Source of the DNA: Croceicoccus naphthovorans
GTDB lineage: Bacteria; Pseudomonadota; Alphaproteobacteria; Sphingomonadales; Sphingomonadaceae
DNA: 64,000 bases
Direction of reading: 5' to 3'
Assembly: GCF_001028705.1 (NCBI RefSeq)
Contig: NZ_CP011770.1
Location: forward strand, 1,553,501 to 1,617,500
Shown here: positions 1-18,672 of the stretch, piece after piece
Layout: every line of letters starts with the position of its first letter
Numbering within the stretch: position 1 is the stretch's first letter
The notes under the pieces: model-generated
What the model was told of the DNA's origin: nothing
The model's input: only the letters and a program-made list of their open reading frames with translations
The model's database searches: none
Made by a program: the position numbers and the translations under genes

Positions 1-434
1 TTACCTGCACGTCCAGCCCGTTCGGGAACAAGCTAGATCATATTCCCGATCTGGTGCACCCGCCGGTCTGGTGGGGGTGCCTTGCCTATGGATTGTTGCG
101 GGATTCGGCGGATCATGCGTTGATCGTCGGATCGGCGGTGGTGATCGTGGGAAGCTATGTTGTCGGGCGACTTGTCGAAGTCGGGTTCAAGAAAGTCTAC
201 GGCTTCAACCAGTACATGTGGCAGCCTTTCGATCAATACCTGCGGTTGATCATCGCCCGTCGGAACACGATCCTTGCGATCATGACGGTTGGTCTGATCC
301 TAGGCCAGCCGGTTGCCGGATTTGTCCTTGCCGCAGTGTGGAGCGTGCTGACCATCGGCATCCAGCCGATCCGCTTTATTCAGGCGTGGGGGATGGCGCG
401 GGGCGGGTCTGCGCCGACACCCTGGATTCAATAG
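1..434 (+). CDS. CDP-alcohol phosphatidyltransferase family protein (5' truncated by window edge)
   Basis: Only the C-terminal ~144 residues are present and the reading frame is open to the left edge. The fragment begins inside the CDP-alcohol phosphotransferase signature: the visible GNKLDHIPD matches the second half (G-x3-D-x3-D) of the family motif DG-x2-AR-x8-G-x3-D-x3-D, whose aspartates bind the metal and CDP-alcohol. Several hydrophobic segments follow. The same fragment is clearly paralogous to the complete enzyme encoded on the minus strand at 4016-5161: both have the I/LVHPP or LIHPP stretch after the motif and a later RLI-x-ARRN block. The role is inferred to be membrane transfer of a phospho-alcohol from a CDP-activated donor; substrate unknown. 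The stop lies 3 nt before the next gene, so the two are probably co-transcribed. Confidence 0.85.
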   Translation, partial: TCTSSPFGNKLDHIPDLVHPPVWWGCLAYGLLRDSADHALIVGSAVVIVGSYVVGRLVEVGFKKVYGFNQYMWQPFDQYLRLIIARRNTILAIMTVGLILGQPVAGFVLAAVWSVLTIGIQPIRFIQAWGMARGGSAPTPWIQ

Positions 435-437
435 CGG

Positions 438-1397
438 ATGCCCTGGGGTCGTTTGATAAAGCGCGAACTGGTTCCGGTTCTCGCTCTGCTTCTGCTTTGG
501 GGAACGGTCCTCATCCAGATCGGACCACGCGCCTTGGCCTTGGTTATTGCCGTGCATTTTTGCGCAAACGCAGCCCAAGGGATCAGCGCCATTGCCACCG
601 TCGGGGCGGTGCGCCGTCGCCGCGCGGCTGCGCCTGAGATATTCCGTGCGACCAGACTGCGCGCATGGATACTGGAAGGGGCCTCTCTGGTCGGCGGACT
701 TGTCGCTCTGGGCCTGATTGCCTTGCTCTATGTCTTTTTCGAAGAGCGGGAGTTGGTGCCCCTTATCGCCATGATCGCTTTGGGTTTCCCCGCGCGATAC
801 AACGGACCGCTTCGTGCGCGCGGATTCGGTTCGGCGGTTCCGCGCGTCGTGCGGTCGTGGTCCGCGGCAATCATGGTGCCGATTGTCCTGCTGATCTGGC
901 CGACGGCAGAGGCGGCGGTTCTGGCGCTCGCCGCGCGGGAGTGGGTGACGACAATCACTCTCGCGCTCTGGCGGGAGAAACCGCCAACGGAACGGCAGAT
1001 AGAGCGGACCGAGCACTATGTCCCCGCGTGGCGAGAGTTTCTGACCCTGACCGCGTCGCTTTCGATGCGGCGGTTTTTCTATCACGCCAGCCACTCGATC
1101 CTGCACTTCGTCGTCGGTCCGTTCGGAAGCGCAGTCGCACGGGCATCGCGGGGCATGGGCTATCTGCGGCGTGTCAGCGAGGTCCGGCAGATGAAGCAGG
1201 TCGTCTCACTCGCCTCTGTCGGTGGGCTGGGCGGGACCGTACTTCTGCTGTGGCTGGTGCCGGGGCCGGGTTCGCTCGCGCTCAGCAGTCTGCTGCTGCG
1301 TCTGGGTGCTTTGGCGACGAGTGCGACGATCTGGACTTATGCCTTTCCCGCCGCAGCAGCCGGCAGTGCGGGTGAGGATAGCGCAGACGACGATTGA
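438..1397 (+). CDS. polytopic membrane protein of unknown function in surface-glycolipid cluster
   Basis: A 319-residue hydrophobic protein with roughly eight predicted membrane segments (for example near residues 10-45, 78-105, 138-165 and 240-300) and basic loops. I do not recognise a catalytic motif. The length is well below that of a full Wzx flippase (about 420-500 residues), though the pattern of short loops and Arg-rich turns is compatible with a transporter-like or flippase-derived protein. The ATG is 3 nt after the stop of the CDP-alcohol phosphotransferase, implying a shared transcript, and the gene converges on a true flippase gene just downstream. A role in handling the lipid-linked product of the neighbouring transferase is inference from position only. 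Confidence 0.6.
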   Translation: MPWGRLIKRELVPVLALLLLWGTVLIQIGPRALALVIAVHFCANAAQGISAIATVGAVRRRRAAAPEIFRATRLRAWILEGASLVGGLVALGLIALLYVFFEERELVPLIAMIALGFPARYNGPLRARGFGSAVPRVVRSWSAAIMVPIVLLIWPTAEAAVLALAAREWVTTITLALWREKPPTERQIERTEHYVPAWREFLTLTASLSMRRFFYHASHSILHFVVGPFGSAVARASRGMGYLRRVSEVRQMKQVVSLASVGGLGGTVLLLWLVPGPGSLALSSLLLRLGALATSATIWTYAFPAAAAGSAGEDSADDD

Positions 1398-1402
1398 GCG
1401 CC

Positions 1403-2725
1403 TCAGGACTCCAGCCTGCGGATCGCATAGAGCGTCATGCCCCCCATCACGAGATAGCCGACCAACCCGCCGATCGCGACCGACCAGGCTGCACCGCTGC
1501 TGCCATATGTCGGGGCGAGGAGGAGCAGCATTGCCGAGGTCGCCACTACAATCGCGAAGTGCGCCCGCAGCGCCAGCCGTGCCCGATTGGTCGAATGCAG
1601 CACAGGTTCGAACGCCACGCTCGCCAGTTCAAAGCTGGCCGCGATGGTCAGCGGGACCAGTGCGACATAGGCGGCGCCAAACGATTCGCCCGCGATCAGT
1701 TCCAGCAGGAAGCGGCCTGCGACGAAGACGACGGCAACGACGAGCAACCCGCCAAGCCCCGCCAGACGCGTGGTTTGCACAACCAGCTTGCGAAAGGCCG
1801 CGATGTCCGACGCGACGCGGGCGCGGGCAATCTCGGCATAGGCGGCGCGGGTCAGCAGGGTGGAAAGCTTGGCCAATCCTTGCGCCAACTGGTGCGCAAG
1901 GCGATAGAGGCCCGCTGAACTGGTCCCGACGAAGTACCCCACCGCCAGCAGCGGCCCGTGGCGATAGAGCGCGTTGAGCGAGGCACTGGCGTACGTGACA
2001 CCGAAGAACCGCACGACGCCGGTATTTTCCTGCTTGGTCTGCCCGATGGACCGAAGGTTCTTGAATCTGATCGCCTGCGGGCAAAGCCAGCGGGCGATGA
2101 TCCAGTAGACTGCAGCCTCCAGCAGGTCGATGAGCGCCCATGCGATGAAAAACTTCACCAGGCTTGGTCCGGTCAGCCAAATGCCGACCGCTGCCGCCAG
2201 TCGGCCCAGCGGGACCAGCGCTTCGACATAAACGGCCAGGTCGAACCGGTCGAGCGCGCGGACCACGCCGGTGGGGGCCGATACCAGCGCCCAGACCGCC
2301 GCGACATTGAACCAGAAACCCATGTCGACCAGCGCCGGGTTCAGTTCCAGCATGTCGGCAAACTGGTAGAAGGCTAGATAGGCGACCAGCGTGCCGAACA
2401 GCGCACCGACAACGTCGAGCACGCCCGCCAACATCGACAACCGCCCGAACGCGTCCCAGTTTTTGGCGTGAACGTGCTCTGCCCCGTATCGCACGACGAC
2501 GCGCCACGTTTCGAACCCGCAGATCGCGATCAGCGCCTGCGAGGTGCCGAAAATCAGCGCAAAGTGGCCGAAGTCTTTCAGGCCCAGCGTACGCGTCAGA
2601 ATCGCCAGATAGACGAGCGAGCATACCGCGCCGAAACCCTTCCCGGCGATCAGCCAGGCGAGGTTCGCGACCATTCGTCCCATCAGGGATCGGTTTTGCG
2701 GAGAGGTTTCCGCGCGATTAGCCAT
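1403..2725 (-). CDS. polysaccharide/oligosaccharide flippase (Wzx/MATE-like)
   Basis: A 440-residue protein with about twelve hydrophobic segments spread along its length, typical of the MVF/Wzx superfamily of lipid-linked oligosaccharide exporters. The N-terminal block (LAWLIAGKGFGAVCSLVYLA then ILTRTLGLKDFGHFA) is the standard start of this family, in which helix 1 is followed by a conserved L-x-R-x-LG-x-x-x-FG turn. The ATG was placed in front of MANRAETS because the frame upstream contains no family-like sequence. It is divergent from the nucleotidyltransferase at 2850, with 124 nt between them for promoters. In context it would move a lipid-linked product, possibly built by the nearby CDP-alcohol enzymes, across the inner membrane. 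The substrate cannot be read from sequence. Confidence 0.8.
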   Translation of the reverse strand: MANRAETSPQNRSLMGRMVANLAWLIAGKGFGAVCSLVYLAILTRTLGLKDFGHFALIFGTSQALIAICGFETWRVVVRYGAEHVHAKNWDAFGRLSMLAGVLDVVGALFGTLVAYLAFYQFADMLELNPALVDMGFWFNVAAVWALVSAPTGVVRALDRFDLAVYVEALVPLGRLAAAVGIWLTGPSLVKFFIAWALIDLLEAAVYWIIARWLCPQAIRFKNLRSIGQTKQENTGVVRFFGVTYASASLNALYRHGPLLAVGYFVGTSSAGLYRLAHQLAQGLAKLSTLLTRAAYAEIARARVASDIAAFRKLVVQTTRLAGLGGLLVVAVVFVAGRFLLELIAGESFGAAYVALVPLTIAASFELASVAFEPVLHSTNRARLALRAHFAIVVATSAMLLLLAPTYGSSGAAWSVAIGGLVGYLVMGGMTLYAIRRLES

Positions 2726-2849
2726 ATTCGACGCCGAATGGACGACCGCCCGCCATCGCGCAAGCGTCCGTGCAAAATTGCGCACCGTGCTGTGTGCAGC
2801 CTGGCCAAGGCAATTGCGGGAAAGGTTCAAGTTGCCTAACGGATTGGCC

Positions 2850-3590
2850 ATGATCGAACATGCCATTCTGTTGAGCGCGGGGCAGGGCTCGCGCCTGCTG
2901 CCGCTGACCGCCGAGCGTCCGAAGTGCCTGATCGACTTTTCCGGAAAGTCGCTGATCGAATGGCAGATAGAGATGCTGGCCCGCGGCGGGGTGAAGCGGA
3001 TCGACGTTGTCACCGGCTTCATGACGGACATGGTCGAAGCGGCCATCGCCCGCATCGACAACCCGCGGGTGGAGGTGACCTGTCATTTCAACCCGTTCTT
3101 CAAGGTGGCAGACAACCTGGGCTCGTGCTGGATCGTGCGTGAGCAGATGATGAATGACTTCCTGATCCTGAATGGCGATACGCTGATTTCGGAAGACATC
3201 GTACGAAAGGTTCAGGAAGGCTCCGACTGGCCCATCGCGGTCACGGTCGACGTAAAGCCGTCCTACGACAGCGACGACATGAAGGTCTCGCGCGGGGAGA
3301 ACGGGCGGCTTGCCCGCATCGGCAAGACGCTGACGGCCGAAGTCAGCAATGCCGAATCGATCGGGTTCCTTGCGTTTCGAGGCGAGGGGGCGGAACTGTT
3401 CCGCAATACCGTGCGTGACACGATGCGTACGCCCGACGGTGTCAACCATTGGTACCTGAAGGTGATCGACATGATCGCCGATAGTGGCAAGGTCGGCACC
3501 AAGTCGATCGAAGGGCTGGACTGGGCCGAGGTCGACTTCCTCAACGATATCGAGATCGCGACCGAACTGACCGATCGCTGGGTCGGCTGA
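2850..3590 (+). CDS. sugar/alcohol-phosphate nucleotidyltransferase (LicC/IPCT-like)
   Basis: A 246-residue single-domain nucleotidyltransferase. The N-terminus carries the nucleotide-binding loop LSAGQGSRLLPLT followed by RPKCLIDF (the catalytic Lys of the PK motif). ILNGDTLI supplies the metal-binding Asp near residue 110, and EVDFLNDIEIA near the C-terminus supplies the second metal ligand. Family members activate phosphocholine, inositol-1-phosphate or sugar-1-phosphates with CTP or another NTP. With two CDP-alcohol phosphotransferases in the same cluster, a CTP-dependent reaction giving a CDP-alcohol donor is the most economical inference, but nucleotide and acceptor remain unproven. The start at ATG begins immediately with the typical MIEHAILLSAG; no strong ribosome site is visible. 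Confidence 0.8.
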   Translation: MIEHAILLSAGQGSRLLPLTAERPKCLIDFSGKSLIEWQIEMLARGGVKRIDVVTGFMTDMVEAAIARIDNPRVEVTCHFNPFFKVADNLGSCWIVREQMMNDFLILNGDTLISEDIVRKVQEGSDWPIAVTVDVKPSYDSDDMKVSRGENGRLARIGKTLTAEVSNAESIGFLAFRGEGAELFRNTVRDTMRTPDGVNHWYLKVIDMIADSGKVGTKSIEGLDWAEVDFLNDIEIATELTDRWVG

Positions 3591-4019
3591 TCAGGCGAGC
3601 AGCGCGGAGAGTTCTTCGCGCAGGGCCGCGATGTCGGCGTCGGTCAGCGCGATAGCTGAGCCGAGGTCCGGCACCTTCGGCCAGCCTGCATCGGTGAAGC
3701 TGTGCCCACCCCATTCGCGCGCGCCATCATAGCGCGGGATGACGTGGAAATGGACTTGGGGGTCCACCATCATCAGCATCAGGTAGTTGATCTTCGCATA
3801 ATCGACGAAGCCGCGCAGCGCGGTTTCGATCGCTTTCGTCGCTTGCTCCAGTTCCGCAAACGCCGCCGGGGGAAGGGCGGAGAAATCGGTGACTTCGGAC
3901 TTGGCCGCAAGTACGAGGCTGCCCAGAGTCGGCTGGGCCGGACGCAGCAGCACGACCCAGTGTTCGAATTCGCGGATCAGCGTAGCCGGATACCCGAATT
4001 TCTCGATAGTGGGGTTCAT
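3591..4019 (-). CDS. HIT-family hydrolase/transferase
   Basis: A 142-residue histidine-triad superfamily protein. The active-site strand reads QVHFHVIPRY, so it keeps the second (nucleophilic) and third histidines of the H-x-H-x-H triad while the first is Gln. The preceding LRPAQPTLGSLVLAAK block fits the HIT fold. Such proteins hydrolyse or transfer nucleoside monophosphates. The ATG overlaps the stop of the upstream CDP-alcohol phosphotransferase (ATGA), so the two are translationally coupled on the minus strand. A housekeeping role for nucleotide by-products of that reaction is possible but is inference. It converges with the nucleotidyltransferase at 2850, with abutting stops. Confidence 0.8.
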   Translation of the reverse strand: MNPTIEKFGYPATLIREFEHWVVLLRPAQPTLGSLVLAAKSEVTDFSALPPAAFAELEQATKAIETALRGFVDYAKINYLMLMMVDPQVHFHVIPRYDGAREWGGHSFTDAGWPKVPDLGSAIALTDADIAALREELSALLA

Positions 4020-5161
4020 GCCGCATCTCCCGAAAGCCAGCTTTTGATCGGGCCGTGTCGACGCACCGCGATCTCTGCCTGCAACAGCTGTATGCAATGG
4101 ACCACCAGCGAAATTACGGTCCACCACGCCACCGCTACGATGCCGATATCGGGGCGTCCGAACAGCGTGGCGACGAACAGGATCACCATGTTTGGATTGC
4201 GCCGCGCCGTGATCAGGCGGAACCAGCTGTCGAACCGCCGCCAGACATGGATGTGCATCATCTGATGCCGCCGCATGAACAGCCCTTCGATCATGCGCTG
4301 CACAACATAGCCGCCCTGTATCGCGATCTGGGTCAGCCAAAAGGTCGTAGGATCGAGCGCCAGTCCCCAATAGACCAGCCCTGTCGCCCAGAACCACCAC
4401 CAGAACGGCGGGTGGATCAGGTCTATGCCGTGGTCGAAGACGTTGCCCCACCAGCTGGACGTGATCGTGCAACGGGCCAGTTTCCCGTCAACGGTATCCA
4501 GCACCATGAACACCAGCCCGAATGCCATGCCCTGCCAGTAATGGCCGAAGGCGAACAGTGCGGTGGCCGCAAGGCAGAACGCCGCGCCGACTGCCGTCAC
4601 CATGTTCGGCGTGATGTTCAGCCGTGCCGCAATGCGGGTAATGACCAGCGCCCATTCGGGCCACAGGTACTTGGTCAGAACATCGGTCACGCCCTTGTAG
4701 GCGCCGAAATAGCTGGCCCGTTCGATCGGGCGGACGGTTTGCGGGTTCAGCGCAATCAGGAACGGTGTTTCCCGCTTGCGCAGTTGCTTGTTTTCTACCG
4801 TCGGCCCGTCTTCATAGCGCAGGATGGTCAGCGGCAAGGGCTCGCAATCGATGCCTTCCAGCATAGCCGTGCGGATCTTCTCCGCCTGTACGGGATCGGA
4901 AACATGCGCCAATGCGGGCACGCCGCCCAAGGTCAGCATCGTATCGGGCCGCCGACCCAATTCGCGCAGCCAGCACGGATCGTAGGCGAACGCGGCGTTG
5001 ACCAACAGCACCGGACCGTTTTCACGCGCATGCCAGTTGTCGCGCGGCAGGTCCGCCGACCGCGCAATGCGGCGCGTGCGTTCGCCCATCGAGAGTCCCC
5101 ATAGCAGCGTGGGGTTCTCTCCGACGGAAACGACCGTGGGGGCGTTATCGGACCTGATCAT
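4016..5161 (-). CDS. two-domain CDP-alcohol phosphotransferase (IPCT/DIPPS-like architecture, degenerate N-terminal domain)
   Basis: A 381-residue protein. The C-terminal half is a membrane CDP-alcohol phosphotransferase with a perfect signature: DGKLAR, eight residues, then GNVFDHGID, plus about six membrane helices. The N-terminal ~150 residues are soluble and resemble a nucleotidyltransferase whose loop is degenerate (GENPTLLWGLSMGERTRR instead of G-x-G-x-R). The linker (LRKRETP, then a K-x3-D segment and LNITPNMVT) follows the layout of bifunctional inositol-phosphate cytidylyltransferase/phosphotransferases. The ATG chosen leaves a 113-nt divergent promoter region; a TTG at 5245 in the same frame is less likely. 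Overlaps the HIT gene by ATGA. Substrate unknown. Confidence 0.78.
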   Translation of the reverse strand: MIRSDNAPTVVSVGENPTLLWGLSMGERTRRIARSADLPRDNWHARENGPVLLVNAAFAYDPCWLRELGRRPDTMLTLGGVPALAHVSDPVQAEKIRTAMLEGIDCEPLPLTILRYEDGPTVENKQLRKRETPFLIALNPQTVRPIERASYFGAYKGVTDVLTKYLWPEWALVITRIAARLNITPNMVTAVGAAFCLAATALFAFGHYWQGMAFGLVFMVLDTVDGKLARCTITSSWWGNVFDHGIDLIHPPFWWWFWATGLVYWGLALDPTTFWLTQIAIQGGYVVQRMIEGLFMRRHQMMHIHVWRRFDSWFRLITARRNPNMVILFVATLFGRPDIGIVAVAWWTVISLVVHCIQLLQAEIAVRRHGPIKSWLSGDAA

Positions 5162-5274
5162 GTTCAAGGCGCTTAGATGGGCGATTTGCGAACGGCAATG
5201 CCTGACATGCGCGTAATCCCCGTATGGGGGCGTTTGGGCGTTCAACAGGCTGGGCCATGCGGCGATGTGGAGTT

Positions 5275-6066
5275 ATGAGCGCGGAGATGAACGATATTCG
5301 ACCGGACCTGTCATTAATGACCGCCCTGATCCTTGCGGGGTCGCGACCAGAGGGAGAGCCTTTCGCGCTGGCGCAGGGCTATCGCCATAAAGCGTTGATC
5401 GAGATCGAGGGCAAACCGATGCTGTCATGGGTTTGCGAGGCCCTTCGGAACGCGGGATTCGCGCGGGTTGTCGTGACGAGCAACGTCGATGAGATTCTAA
5501 AGCTTGCCGGGCAGGCAGGTGCCGAGACCATGCCTGCGGAAAGCGGACCCAGCGCCAGCGTTGCTGCGGCATTCGAGCGATTCGGCGCGCCGATGTTGGT
5601 GACGACATCGGATCATCCGCTGTTGCGTGCCGATTGGGTGCGCGACTTCGTGGCCGATACGCCAGAGACGTGCGACCTGTCGATCCTGCTCGCCAATCGC
5701 GATACGGTTGAGGCGGCTGTGCCAGATGGCAAGCGCACCTGGATACGGATGGCCGATGGCCACTGGTCGGGGTGCAATCTGTTTCTGCTGAAAACCGCCG
5801 CCGCGCGCCGTGCGATCGACCTTTGGGGCACAGTGGAGGCGAACCGGAAGCGGCCGTTGCGGATTGCTATGCAGTTGGGGGTCGGAACCCTGCTGCGGTT
5901 CGTGCTGGGGCGGCTGACGATGCAACAGGTCGCGGGCAGGCTGGGGCTGCGCGTGGGGGTGGACGCCCGTGTGGTGGCCGCGCGCGATGGGTTGGCGGCG
6001 GTCGACGTGGACAAGGAAGCGGACCTCGTGCTGGTCCGCTCGATCATGGCGGGCCGAGGCGGTTGA
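5275..6066 (+). CDS. MobA-like NTP transferase domain protein
   Basis: A 263-residue nucleotidyltransferase of the MobA/IspD-like fold. The N-terminus has ALILAGSRPEGEP followed by HKALIEIEGKPM (the K-x-L-x-x-x-x-G-x-P-M pattern), and TTSDHPLLRADW supplies the metal-binding Asp. The C-terminal ~80 residues (LGRLTMQQVAGRLGLRVG) extend beyond the minimal domain. The ATG in front of SAEMNDI is taken; another Met lies four codons on. The stop overlaps the start of the SDR gene as TGATG, so the two are translationally coupled. A nucleotidyltransferase coupled to a short-chain reductase recalls CDP-ribitol synthesis (TarI/TarJ, Bcs1), but the particular substrate here is unknown. Confidence 0.72.
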   Translation: MSAEMNDIRPDLSLMTALILAGSRPEGEPFALAQGYRHKALIEIEGKPMLSWVCEALRNAGFARVVVTSNVDEILKLAGQAGAETMPAESGPSASVAAAFERFGAPMLVTTSDHPLLRADWVRDFVADTPETCDLSILLANRDTVEAAVPDGKRTWIRMADGHWSGCNLFLLKTAAARRAIDLWGTVEANRKRPLRIAMQLGVGTLLRFVLGRLTMQQVAGRLGLRVGVDARVVAARDGLAAVDVDKEADLVLVRSIMAGRGG

Positions 6067-6782
6067 TGCGCTGCGCCGTATTCGGATCGACTGGCGGGAT
6101 CGGGGCGGCACTGGTCGATCGTCTGCTAAGCCGGAGCGATGTGTCCCGTGTCTATTGCGTGTCGCGGAGGGGCGAGGGGTTAGCCGGTGGACGCGCGGCG
6201 CCGCTGGCGTTCGATTTACGCGACGAGGCCAGCATTGAGCGCGCTGCCTTGGAGATGGGGCAGGAAGGCGCGCTAGACCTCGTGATCGTGGCTACTGGCA
6301 TCTTGACGCGCGATCCCGGGATTGCCCCTGAAAAGACGTGGCGTGCCATCGACCCTGCCGCGATGGCCGATGTTTTTGCGTTGAACACCATCGGTCCGGC
6401 CTTGGTCGGCAAGCATGTCCTGCCGTTATTGGCTAAAGATCGGGCGGCGCGCATGGCATTCCTGTCGGCCCGCGTCGGCTCGATCGGGGATAATGGGCTG
6501 GGGGGATGGCACAGCTATCGTGCGTCGAAAGCCGCGCTCAACATGCTGGTTCGCAATTTTGCGATAGAACTTCGGCGTAGCAATCCGCGGGCGATCGTTG
6601 CCGCGCTGCATCCGGGGACGGTGGCAACCGCCCTGTCGCAGCCGTTTAGCGGGAATGTGCCCAACGAAAAGCTGTTTGATGCCGACTATGCCGCAGGCTG
6701 TCTGCTTGACGTATTGTCCGGTCTTTCACCACAGGACAGCGGCGAGTTCTTTGCTTGGGACGGTCGAACCATCGCATGGTGA
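6066..6782 (+). CDS. short-chain dehydrogenase/reductase (SDR)
   Basis: A 238-residue classical SDR. The N-terminal dinucleotide loop is GSTGGIGAAL, the structural NNAG position is NTIGPAL, and the catalytic residues are the Ser in FLSARVGS and the Tyr/Lys pair in YRASKAA. The length is normal for the family. It is coupled by TGATG to the preceding MobA-like gene and is the last gene of the left-hand cluster. The pair suggests reduction of a keto-phosphate or an alcohol linked to nucleotide activation. It would be cytosolic and NAD(P)H-dependent; the substrate cannot be inferred. It faces the rne gene tail to tail. Confidence 0.78.
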   Translation: MRCAVFGSTGGIGAALVDRLLSRSDVSRVYCVSRRGEGLAGGRAAPLAFDLRDEASIERAALEMGQEGALDLVIVATGILTRDPGIAPEKTWRAIDPAAMADVFALNTIGPALVGKHVLPLLAKDRAARMAFLSARVGSIGDNGLGGWHSYRASKAALNMLVRNFAIELRRSNPRAIVAALHPGTVATALSQPFSGNVPNEKLFDADYAAGCLLDVLSGLSPQDSGEFFAWDGRTIAW

Positions 6783-16216: not shown

Positions 16217-17619
16217 CGTTCAAGGGGCTGCAGCCTATCGTTTATGGCGGCCGCGAAGTCTGGCCGCTGATCGAAGGCGGTAAGGGCGTTTCGGCGACGA
16301 ACCACATGAGTTCGGGCGCATGGGCCGCGGCGGGCGGCATCGGCACGGTTAGCGCGGTGAACGCCGACAGTTATGACGCCGAGGGCAAGATCGTACCGCA
16401 GGTCTATGAGCAGATGACCCGCCGCGAACGCCACGAACAGCTGATCAAGTATGGCATCGAAGGCGGTGTCGAACAGGTGAAGCGTGCCTACGAGATGTCG
16501 AACGGCAAGGGCGCGATCAACATCAACGTCCTTTGGGAAATGGGCGGCGCGCAGGAAATTCTGGAAAATATCCTGGAGCGCACGCCGGGCATGATCACCG
16601 GCGTCACCTGCGGCGCGGGCATGCCGTACAAGCTGGCCGAAATCGCGCAGCGCCACAATGTGAATTACCTGCCGATCATTTCTTCGGCCCGGGCATTCCG
16701 CGCGCTGTGGAAGCGTTCGTACTCCAAGGTGCCCGAACTGATGGCGGCGGTGGTCTATGAAGACCCGTGGCTGGCCGGTGGGCACAACGGTCTGTCCAAC
16801 GCCGAAGACCCGCGCCAGCCGCAGGACCCGTATCCTCGCGTCGCCGAACTGCGCGCCACGATGCGCAAGGAAGGCGTTTCGGAAGACACAGCCATTGTCA
16901 TGGCGGGCGGCGTCTGGTTCCTGCGCGAGTGGGAAAACTGGATCGACAACCCAGAGATCGGCAAGATCGCGTTCCAGTTCGGCACGCGTCCGTTGCTGAC
17001 GCAGGAAAGCCCGATCCCGCAAGGGTGGAAGGACATGCTGCGCACGCTGGAGCCTGGCGATGTGCTGCTCCACAAGTTCTCGCCGACCGGGTTCTACTCT
17101 TCGGCGGTCCGCAATCCGTTCCTGCGCAGCCTTGAGGGCCGGTCGGAGCGTCAGATTCCGTATTCGCGCGTCGAAGCAGGCGATCACACCGTGCAGCTTG
17201 ACGTCGGGGTGAAGGGCAAGAACTTCTGGGTCACGCCGCATGACCGCGATCGCGCGCGGGGCTGGGCCGCCGATGGGCACGACAGTGCGCTTAAAACGCC
17301 GGATGACACCGTGATCTTCGTCGGCGCGGCAGAGCGTGAGATGATCCGCAAGGACCAGGCCGATTGCATGGGCTGCCTTTCGCACTGCGGGTTCTCTTCG
17401 TGGAAGGACCATGGCGATTACACCACAGGCCGCCTTGCCGATCCGCGCAGCTTCTGCATCCAGAAAACCCTGCAGGACATTGCGCATGGCGGTGAGACGG
17501 ACGAGAACCTCGCCTTTGCGGGCCACGCGGCGTATCGTTTCAAGCAGGACCCGTTTTATTCCAACGGCTATACGCCGACGGTGAAGGAACTGGTCGACCG
17601 TATCCTGACGGGGGATTGA
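16213..17619 (+). CDS. nitronate monooxygenase-like flavoprotein (NAD(P)H-dependent flavin oxidoreductase family)
   Basis: A 468-residue TIM-barrel flavoprotein of the 2-nitropropane dioxygenase/nitronate monooxygenase family. Family-like features include TGVTCGAGMPYKLAEIA, LPIISSARAFRAL and the phosphate-binding stretch AIVMAGGVW with FQFGTRPLL. It is longer than typical members (about 320-380 residues), because a C-terminal extension carries a Cys cluster: CMGCLSHC plus a fourth Cys in SFCIQK about 40 residues further on. This could bind zinc or an iron-sulfur cluster (inference). ATGA overlap with the methyltransferase gene and an AAGGAAG site support the start. The physiological substrate is unknown. 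Confidence 0.8.
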   Translation: MTFKGLQPIVYGGREVWPLIEGGKGVSATNHMSSGAWAAAGGIGTVSAVNADSYDAEGKIVPQVYEQMTRRERHEQLIKYGIEGGVEQVKRAYEMSNGKGAININVLWEMGGAQEILENILERTPGMITGVTCGAGMPYKLAEIAQRHNVNYLPIISSARAFRALWKRSYSKVPELMAAVVYEDPWLAGGHNGLSNAEDPRQPQDPYPRVAELRATMRKEGVSEDTAIVMAGGVWFLREWENWIDNPEIGKIAFQFGTRPLLTQESPIPQGWKDMLRTLEPGDVLLHKFSPTGFYSSAVRNPFLRSLEGRSERQIPYSRVEAGDHTVQLDVGVKGKNFWVTPHDRDRARGWAADGHDSALKTPDDTVIFVGAAEREMIRKDQADCMGCLSHCGFSSWKDHGDYTTGRLADPRSFCIQKTLQDIAHGGETDENLAFAGHAAYRFKQDPFYSNGYTPTVKELVDRILTGD

Positions 17620-17640
17620 TGTGCGAAGGGTTGGGGCGGT

Positions 17641-18672
17641 TCAGGCCCAGCCCTCCAGCACCTGATCCAGCGGGCGGTGGCCGTCGGCCCAGACGCGGAT
17701 GTTGGCAATCACCCGCTCACCCGAAGCTGCGCGGCCTTCCTCGGTCGCGCTGCCTAGGTGGGGCTGGGTGATGACATAGGGGTGATCGACAAGCCGCCGG
17801 TCGACCTCTGGCTCGTTCGGAAAGACATCCAGACCCGCGCCCCACAGGCGGCCCGTTTCCAGCGCCTCGATCATCGCTTCGTAGTCGATCAGCTCGCCAC
17901 GCGCGGTGTTCACGATCACGCCGCTGGGCTTCATCAAGCCGATGGCGCGGGCGTCGAGCAGGTTGTGCGTCGCTGCCGTAGCCGGACAGTGGAGGCTGAC
18001 GATGTCGGCGGTCTCCAGCAACTGGTCCAGCGTCGGCACATAGTCCGCACCCAACATCCGTTCGACCGCTTCGGGCAGGCGATGGCGGTTGTGATAGCTG
18101 ACGTTCAGGCCAAAGGCGCGGGCGCGGTGGGCGACGGCCTGACCGATGCGGCCCATGCCGATAATGCCAAGCTTCTTGTCCGCCAGTTTGCGCCCCAGCA
18201 TGGTGGAGGGCGCCCAACCAGACCACTCGCCGCGCCGGATGATCCGCGTCCCTTCGCGCATCCGCCGCATCACGCCGATAATCAGCGCCAGCGTCATGTC
18301 GGCGGTATCTTCTGTGAAAACGCCAGGGGTGTTCGTAACCATGATGCCTTTGGCGCGCGCGGCCTTCAGGTCGATATGATCGGTGCCCGCGCCGAAATTG
18401 GCGATCAGTTTTAGCGAAGGTCCGGCCTGTGCGATCAGATCGCCGTCGATATGATCGGTCACGGTCGGCACCAGCACATCGACCGATCCGACCAGCGCCA
18501 GCATTTCATCACGCGTCAGCGGGCGATCTTCGCGGTTGAGAGTCACATCGAACAGCTCTTCCATCCGCCGTTCCACCGATGGCAGCAGGTGTCGGGTAAC
18601 GCCGACACGGGCGCGCCCCTCTATGCGGCGGTTTTCGGAAGAGGACGGCATGGCATCGGCGCGGTTCGACAT
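17641..18672 (-). CDS. D-2-hydroxyacid dehydrogenase (glyoxylate/hydroxypyruvate reductase-like)
   Basis: A 343-residue NAD(P)-dependent D-isomer-specific 2-hydroxyacid dehydrogenase. The nucleotide fold is marked by LGIIGMGRIGQAVAHRARAF. The catalytic triad is visible as Arg in NTARGELID, Glu in FPNEPEVD and His in TQPHLGSA. The N-terminal ~30 residues before VGVTRHLLP are variable, and a second Met seven codons in is an alternative start. It probably interconverts glyoxylate/glycolate or a related 2-keto acid; the exact substrate cannot be assigned. Convergent with the nitronate monooxygenase-like gene (21-nt gap) and divergent from the SH3 protein gene. Confidence 0.88.
   Translation of the reverse strand: MSNRADAMPSSSENRRIEGRARVGVTRHLLPSVERRMEELFDVTLNREDRPLTRDEMLALVGSVDVLVPTVTDHIDGDLIAQAGPSLKLIANFGAGTDHIDLKAARAKGIMVTNTPGVFTEDTADMTLALIIGVMRRMREGTRIIRRGEWSGWAPSTMLGRKLADKKLGIIGMGRIGQAVAHRARAFGLNVSYHNRHRLPEAVERMLGADYVPTLDQLLETADIVSLHCPATAATHNLLDARAIGLMKPSGVIVNTARGELIDYEAMIEALETGRLWGAGLDVFPNEPEVDRRLVDHPYVITQPHLGSATEEGRAASGERVIANIRVWADGHRPLDQVLEGWA

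Follow-up and report, generated by a model that had tools for sequence, protein, structure and literature searches.

Caulobacter crescentus makes ceramide diphosphoglycerate (CPG2), in which ceramide carries two phosphoglycerates (PMC11324152, PMC12275187, PMC13228409). The genes (cpgA-cpgD, CC_1153, CC_1158) belong to the region CC_1168-CC_1152. Ceramide phosphoglycerate (CPG) requires CC_1161 and CC_1160, while CPG2 requires CC_1159, CC_1153 and CC_1152; CpgB is a ceramide kinase, and CpgD makes cytidine diphosphate (CDP)-glycerate in vitro. The CPG2 pathway has already been predicted for one sphingomonad, Sphingomonas wittichii, with a scattered gene set that lacks CC_1158 (PMC11324152). 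Here, we analyze a gene block at the left end of a 64,000-nucleotide stretch of the Croceicoccus naphthovorans genome (G000:C1:1553501-1617500; hereafter, the window), together with the stretch that adjoins it on the left (L005).

The core of the block consists of two nucleotidyltransferases (NTP1 and NTP2), a CDP-alcohol phosphotransferase (PT2), a HIT (histidine triad) protein and a Wzx-type flippase. Homology, motif and pocket residues, gene order and co-occurrence indicate that this core is very probably the head-group half of a CPG/CPG2 pathway. A preliminary description of the window had proposed an undescribed pathway; for the core genes this proposal gives way to a known one, of which they appear to be the sphingomonad version. 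New here are the HIT protein as a likely partner, the subfamily of a second phosphotransferase (PT1) and a variant NTP1 in four genomes that lack HIT. The features are as follows:

L005:~17509-18165: HAD phosphatase preceding PT1 (PF12710; HAD-IB models)
1..434, + strand: 3' end of PT1, CDP-alcohol phosphotransferase (PF01066, 44 bits; CDP-alcohol motif intact)
438..1397, + strand: putative membrane protein, orphan, with six hydrophobic stretches (no Pfam or NCBIfam family)
1403..2725, - strand: Wzx-type flippase, counterpart of the potential flippase CC_1166 (PF01943, Polysacc_synt)
2850..3590, + strand: NTP1, putative CpgD-type CTP:phosphoglycerate cytidylyltransferase, substrate predicted (NTP_transferase; CpgD similarity)
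3591..4019, - strand: HIT protein, counterpart of CC_1157, coupled to PT2 (PF01230)
4016..5161, - strand: PT2, CpgA-type CDP-alcohol phosphotransferase (PF01066, CDP-OH_P_transf)
5275..6066, + strand: NTP2, MobA/CofC-like nucleotidyltransferase, counterpart of CC_1153 (PF12804, NTP_transf_3)
6066..6782, + strand: short-chain dehydrogenase/reductase (SDR) overlapping NTP2 (PF00106, adh_short)

Pfam and NCBIfam scans recovered every open reading frame (ORF) of the preliminary description, with its coordinates and domains. An ATGA overlap at 4016-4019 joins the PT2 stop to the HIT start, and a TGATG overlap at 6064-6068 joins the NTP2 stop to the SDR start.

Comparison with the Caulobacter Locus

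The reference locus was that of Caulobacter vibrioides DSM 9893 (L116, L117), anchored by the published primer EK1708, which lies at the start of cpgD and matches this locus exactly. Since EK1708 was the only one of the four cpgD primers sought that had an exact match there, either DSM 9893 differs from NA1000 at these sites or the other primers lie outside; EK1708 had no match in 17 genomes of another family (f37). Names such as CC_1153 and CC_1157 are applied to the C. vibrioides locus on the basis of gene order, similarity and EK1708, not locus tags. The gene order is the one published for CC_1167 to CC_1152.

As can be seen, five window genes match this one Caulobacter block. NTP1 is 50% identical (E 7.5e-69) to the primer-bearing ORF, CpgD; PT2 is 43% identical to CpgA (E 2e-83; 45%, E 3e-89 in a second comparison); NTP2 is 47% identical to the CC_1153 counterpart (E 3.5e-64); HIT is 62% identical to the CC_1157 counterpart (E 1e-48); and Wzx is 27% identical to the CC_1166 counterpart (E 3e-36). 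The Wzx protein passes the PF01943 cut-off (35.5 versus 28.2) and fails that of the subfamily model NF041503 (27.6 versus 300 bits).

The presence of a Wzx-type protein could also mean that Wzx exports a polymer of glycerol or ribitol phosphate resembling teichoic acid, especially as some relatives carry F30, a gene that reads like a putative CDP-glycerol transferase and for which the Pfam scan returned no match. However, none of the eight ORFs scanned is a polymerase gene, and aasR of the Caulobacter sphingolipid locus is immediately preceded by Wzx- and F30-type genes, so that we give the polymer only the faintest chance. The F30/CC_1167-type gene (L042:8285-9424, L044:10916-12064; in Caulobacter, L116:12689-13816, ahead of the flippase gene) lies beside PT or NTP1 in 7 of the 35 genomes compared. 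In PMC11324152, CC_1167 is termed probably unrelated, though the cofitness of its mutant with spt is 0.57.

Co-Occurrence across the Family

We surveyed 119 genomes of the family, which are not independent samples, with PT1 as the query at E 1e-5. Matches were found in 45 genomes; the best match is at least as strong as 1e-44 in 36 of them and weak (7e-18 or worse) in the other nine. NTP1 (E 1e-20 or better) is present in exactly the 36 genomes with a full-length phosphotransferase. Twenty stretches around PT and 20 around NTP1 were then compared, representing 34 genomes besides our own (G117 was left out). PT and NTP1 are no more than ~3 kb apart in 26 of the 36 genomes, ours included. Of the remaining ten, eight carry the two genes on separate contigs, while in G052 and G027 a long distance on a single contig separates them. 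PT, HIT, NTP1 and NTP2 are found together again in relatives, so that the grouping noticed in the window goes beyond chance. The preliminary description would have been refuted by a lack of co-occurrence in relatives, but the core genes co-occur strongly.

Four genera each include a species that has PT and NTP1 and another that lacks both (g1, G000/G036; g6, G099/G005; g32, G114/G031; g36, G035/G118). The sdhB gene lies within ~1.6 kb of the cluster in 11 of 35 genomes (L039, L041, L042, L049, L057, L058, L126, L139, L141, L142 and L005 of our own), which suggests an old position with repeated loss rather than recent gain.

The HIT protein follows the same distribution. It is matched in 32 of the 119 genomes (weakest match 1.6e-42), all of them among the 36 with PT and NTP1, and in none of the other 83; PT or NTP1 is at most ~2.5 kb away from it in 31 of the 32 genomes and ~11 kb away in G057. 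In nine HIT proteins compared, the second and third histidines of the triad are always kept, while the first position varies, with His in six, Gln in our own and Asp in two. According to PMC11324152, CC_1157 is probably unrelated to the pathway and its mutant lacks high cofitness; the S. wittichii prediction made there differs from ours in that the HIT gene is set aside. This published view stands against HIT as a pathway member. On the other side, the same paper reports that Zymomonas mobilis lacks both CC_1159 and CC_1157. Since every genome with HIT, 32 in all, is among the 36 that have PT and NTP1, we consider it likely, from these gene distributions, to be a working part of the CpgD-type pathway. 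No paper linking the histidine triad to ceramide and Caulobacter turned up in a search of the open-licence literature, supplements excluded.

NTP1 and the CpgD Pocket

The residues by which CpgD performs catalysis or holds CTP and glycerate have been named (PMC12275187, PMC13228409), and 9 of the 11 positions checked are kept in the window NTP1. The two changes, T88A and T93S, would be conservative in effect: T88 makes a backbone contact in CpgD (PMC13228409), and T93S keeps the hydroxyl.

Among 34 of the 36 family NTP1 proteins (G117 and G052, whose gene matches in two pieces, were left out), N90 is present in 30, and 29 of these also have W201, the remaining one, G072, having Tyr. The other four (G028, G043, G067 and G112, at L124, L125, L126 and L127) combine N90S with W201F, are 34-37% identical to CpgD, and retain N110, M147, K161 and S170. 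These four are precisely the PT genomes without a HIT match, and they possibly make another head group. In f37, 13 of 15 loci are the same as the window NTP1 at the checked positions (L111 was excluded as too short), while the single negative control, the distant L112 (24%), departs from CpgD at 7 of 11.

The best solved-structure match of NTP1 is a CTP:phosphocholine cytidylyltransferase (1jyk, E 3e-12), as one would expect if the block served to decorate a surface glycan with phosphocholine or in another LicC-type manner. The match spans residues 4-118 only, and the ranking says little since CpgD is not among the PDB matches listed. Gene order, pocket residues and co-occurrence all follow CpgD, and Pfam and NCBIfam scans found no LicD-type transferase in the block; decoration of this type thus has hardly any probability left.

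Two Phosphotransferase Subfamilies

Extending the window to the left, as the preliminary description had advised, turned its edge fragment into a complete gene, PT1 (L005:18334-19434), preceded by the HAD phosphatase. PT1 starts with TTG ~666 bp left of the window and ends at window position 434, in an open frame of 399 amino acids. The two phosphotransferases are indeed paralogous, with 29% identity over the full alignment and 34% over PT1 residues 119-379. CDP-alcohol phosphotransferases share the motif D-x2-D-G-x2-A-R-x8-G-x3-D-x3-D, and the alignment shows it complete in both PT1 and PT2.

Weak matches of NTP1, PT1 and PT2 to NCBIfam models, and of the PT profiles to phosphatidylinositol-phosphate (PIP) synthase and AF IPCT-DIPPS structures, raise an inositol-phosphate route, in which an IPCT-type cytidylyltransferase with DIPPS or a PIP synthase would yield a phosphoinositol lipid or di-inositol phosphate. 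IPCT/DIPPS (NF041135, PDB 4mnd) likewise pairs a cytidylyltransferase with a CDP-alcohol transferase, whereas the window has separate genes that score far under the family cut-off. AF2299 (PDB 4o6m), a CDP-alcohol phosphotransferase, shares the CDP-alcohol motif and is matched at profile positions 16-245, including most of the N-terminal part, but it is distant (46 bits). The equivalog cut-offs are missed by far: 49 versus 580 bits for NTP1, 49 versus 170 for PT2 (PIPSynth), and 54 versus 180, 47 versus 170 and 45 versus 580 for PT1. CpgD fits NTP1 better, with half of its residues identical and the glycerate contacts retained, and the block shows no inositol-phosphate synthase (a genome-wide search was not made). 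An inositol route is, in our estimate, highly improbable.

In the Caulobacter locus, PT1 matches the gene that PT2 also matches (36%, E 1.7e-62). A search for PT1 homologues gave 1052 proteins at E 0.001; the best 120 of these, PT1 itself aside, are 40-58% identical to it, and several are named Sphingomonas. In a first tree, PT1 and the L048 protein of G072 paired as long branches, for which reason that tree was replaced by one with 18 of the 120 homologues added. In the rebuilt tree, PT1, L048 and the 18 homologues split from 16 CpgA-type proteins with a branch support of 100/99, and PT2 falls within the CpgA group. By this topology, PT1 is a subfamily separate from CpgA.

A PT1-type protein occurs in 1 of 20 PT neighborhoods, that of G072; since it is the sole full-length phosphotransferase there and lies beside HIT and NTP1, it may replace CpgA in that genome. 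G029 has two PT genes, both of the CpgA (PT2) type. The enzyme that links glycerate to activated ceramide is stated to be unknown (PMC11324152). PT1 with the phosphatase would fit this step, yet PT1 cannot be that enzyme in general, because the Caulobacter search gave one phosphotransferase of such a kind.

A further CDP-alcohol phosphotransferase, on a branch of its own, is found in the sphingolipid locus of f37 genomes (L073:16370-17278, L075:16226-17287, L074:3014-3778, L088:16352-17266). In 3 of the 20 PT neighborhoods (L040, L043, L047), PT adjoins genes reading like a putative Mla-type lipid transporter.

The Orphan Membrane Protein and the SDR

The 40 stretches compared, which come from 34 other genomes, contain no match to the 438-1397 protein or to the SDR, and both were dropped as conserved pathway parts for this reason. 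The preliminary description had taken the block as one set, which holds for the core genes and not for these two, as they do not recur with the core. Among 7993 candidates scored, the 438-1397 protein matched only itself. Its coding score is weakly positive (0.05 bits per codon, the other five frames being negative), compared with 0.08 for the SDR and 0.18-0.56 for conserved cluster genes; it is either an orphan gene or a decayed one.

One may ask whether PT1, the HAD phosphatase and the SDR alter a CPG-type pathway to give another terminal head group, given that PT1, which forms its own subfamily, is accompanied by a phosphatase and that the SDR overlaps NTP2. The absence of SDR matches argues against this, as do the HAD phosphatase, which is present in stretches of 6 of the 34 other genomes, each time without a PT1-type gene, and the NTP1 pocket, which is of the CpgD kind. 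We regard such an alteration as improbable.

CpgB-, CpgC- and spt-Like Genes Elsewhere in the Genome

In C. naphthovorans, CpgB and CpgC homologues are adjacent at C1:583784-585755 (L072), with 39% (E 3.5e-55) and 50% (E 1e-71) identity to the Caulobacter proteins, respectively, and an spt-like gene at C1:742750 is 57% identical to its Caulobacter counterpart. The CPG2-type genes are thus spread over at least three loci. The genome resembles S. wittichii in this respect and differs from the single Caulobacter region, from which it is also set apart by the extra PT1, HAD phosphatase, SDR and orphan membrane protein. In eight relatives, Wzx, NTP1, HIT, PT, kinase, CpgC and NTP2 form one cluster; seven of them (G066, G093, G088, G060, G013, G070, G061) have the window gene order with kinase-CpgC placed between PT and NTP2, while in G099 the order differs. 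One stretch of G291, from the same class, holds PT, HIT, kinase, CpgC, NTP2 and Wzx together with putative spt, aasR, cerR, cerS and LptF/LptG.

A CpgC-like gene is present in 90 of the 119 genomes and in 34 of the 36 with PT and NTP1 (all but G017 and G056). The Caulobacter spt query (286 residues) matched 118 of 119 genomes at E 1e-20, a level at which spt relatives match too; at E 1e-96 or better it matched 117, the exceptions being G056 (6.5e-48) and G082 (no match; 66% complete). The suggestion of PMC11324152 that CpgC resembles a CDP-diacylglycerol synthase was tested with a CpgC profile, which had no match to solved structures and none in Pfam up to E 10.

Upstream of the HAD phosphatase lie genes read as putative sdhB and ZapE. 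At L005:10308-13447 are an acyl carrier protein-like gene, an AMP-binding ligase and a pyridoxal phosphate-dependent decarboxylase, a set that resembles an exosortase-associated one.

Proposed Pathway

Ceramide would be made by spt and its partners and phosphorylated by the CpgB-type kinase, and the CpgC-type protein would take part in the step to CPG. NTP1 would convert CTP and 2-phosphoglycerate to CDP-glycerate, from which PT2 would join phosphoglycerate to CPG with displacement of CMP, giving an anionic sphingolipid with tandem phosphoglycerates that the Wzx-type protein probably flips. NTP2 and HIT would act in the pathway at steps that the scheme does not place, and PT1 with the HAD phosphatase would provide another, divergent transferase from the superfamily to which PT2 belongs. 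Of the chemistry proposed in the preliminary description, a CDP-activated alcohol phosphate, its transfer at the membrane and an exported phosphodiester lipid can be retained. However, (phospho)glycerate, absent from the alcohols listed there, is the most likely alcohol, and the acceptor would most likely be a ceramide lipid and not a polymer. The routes to inositol, choline and polymer products were dropped on scores, the fit to CpgD and gene content.

Several points weigh against the CPG/CPG2 assignment. The CPG- or CPG2-type lipid of C. naphthovorans is a prediction from gene comparison; in the available text of the Caulobacter papers, CpgA has no assay, and the HIT and Wzx counterparts have no tested role. 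The identity of Wzx to its counterpart is low, at 27%. G056 has PT, NTP1 and HIT but no CpgC match and a weak spt-type match (38%), which counts against the assignment unless its assembly (96% complete, about 200 contigs) is incomplete, and G017 has no CpgC match, yet the stretch with its PT also contains an spt-like gene. The single aasR match in the stretches examined is weak (23%) and falls on an AMP-binding ligase; cerS, aasR, cerR and acpR were not searched genome-wide. Finally, the CC_1158 metallophosphoesterase has no match in the window, L072 or the other compared stretches, the whole genome not having been searched. CC_1158 contributes in Caulobacter but is not essential, and since S. 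wittichii and Hyphomonas neptunium also lack it (PMC11324152), it is not a required feature.

A fuller scheme can be imagined, in which PT1 and the HAD phosphatase condense CpgC-made CDP-ceramide with phosphoglycerate and remove the terminal phosphate, as in phosphatidylglycerol synthesis, with PT2 adding the second phosphoglycerate from CDP-glycerate, or in which PT1 extends the head group to more than two units. In this scheme, HIT would be a true enzyme of the pathway with a nucleotide-activated intermediate as its substrate, and the HIT-less N90S/W201F genomes would make a different head group. As a whole, the scheme is rather unlikely.

In the open-licence literature, we found nothing beyond PMC11324152 on phosphosphingolipids in Sphingomonadales. 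Beyond that paper, "ceramide phosphoglycerate" with Sphingomonas led only to work on Sphingobacterium, the works on ceramide diphosphoglycerate name no sphingomonad in the title or the start of the abstract, and the available text of a Novosphingobium lipid paper (PMC13318209) does not mention phosphosphingolipids.

The CPG-type head-group trait would be patchy in the family, with CpgA and CpgD types in 36 of 119 genomes versus a strong spt-type gene in 117. In Caulobacter, the anionic sphingolipid pathway supports survival without lipopolysaccharide (PMC12275187). With the assignment proposed here, a previously unexplained block very probably becomes part of such a pathway, and the published scheme gains two additions: HIT, which is likely to belong to it, and a further subfamily of transferases.

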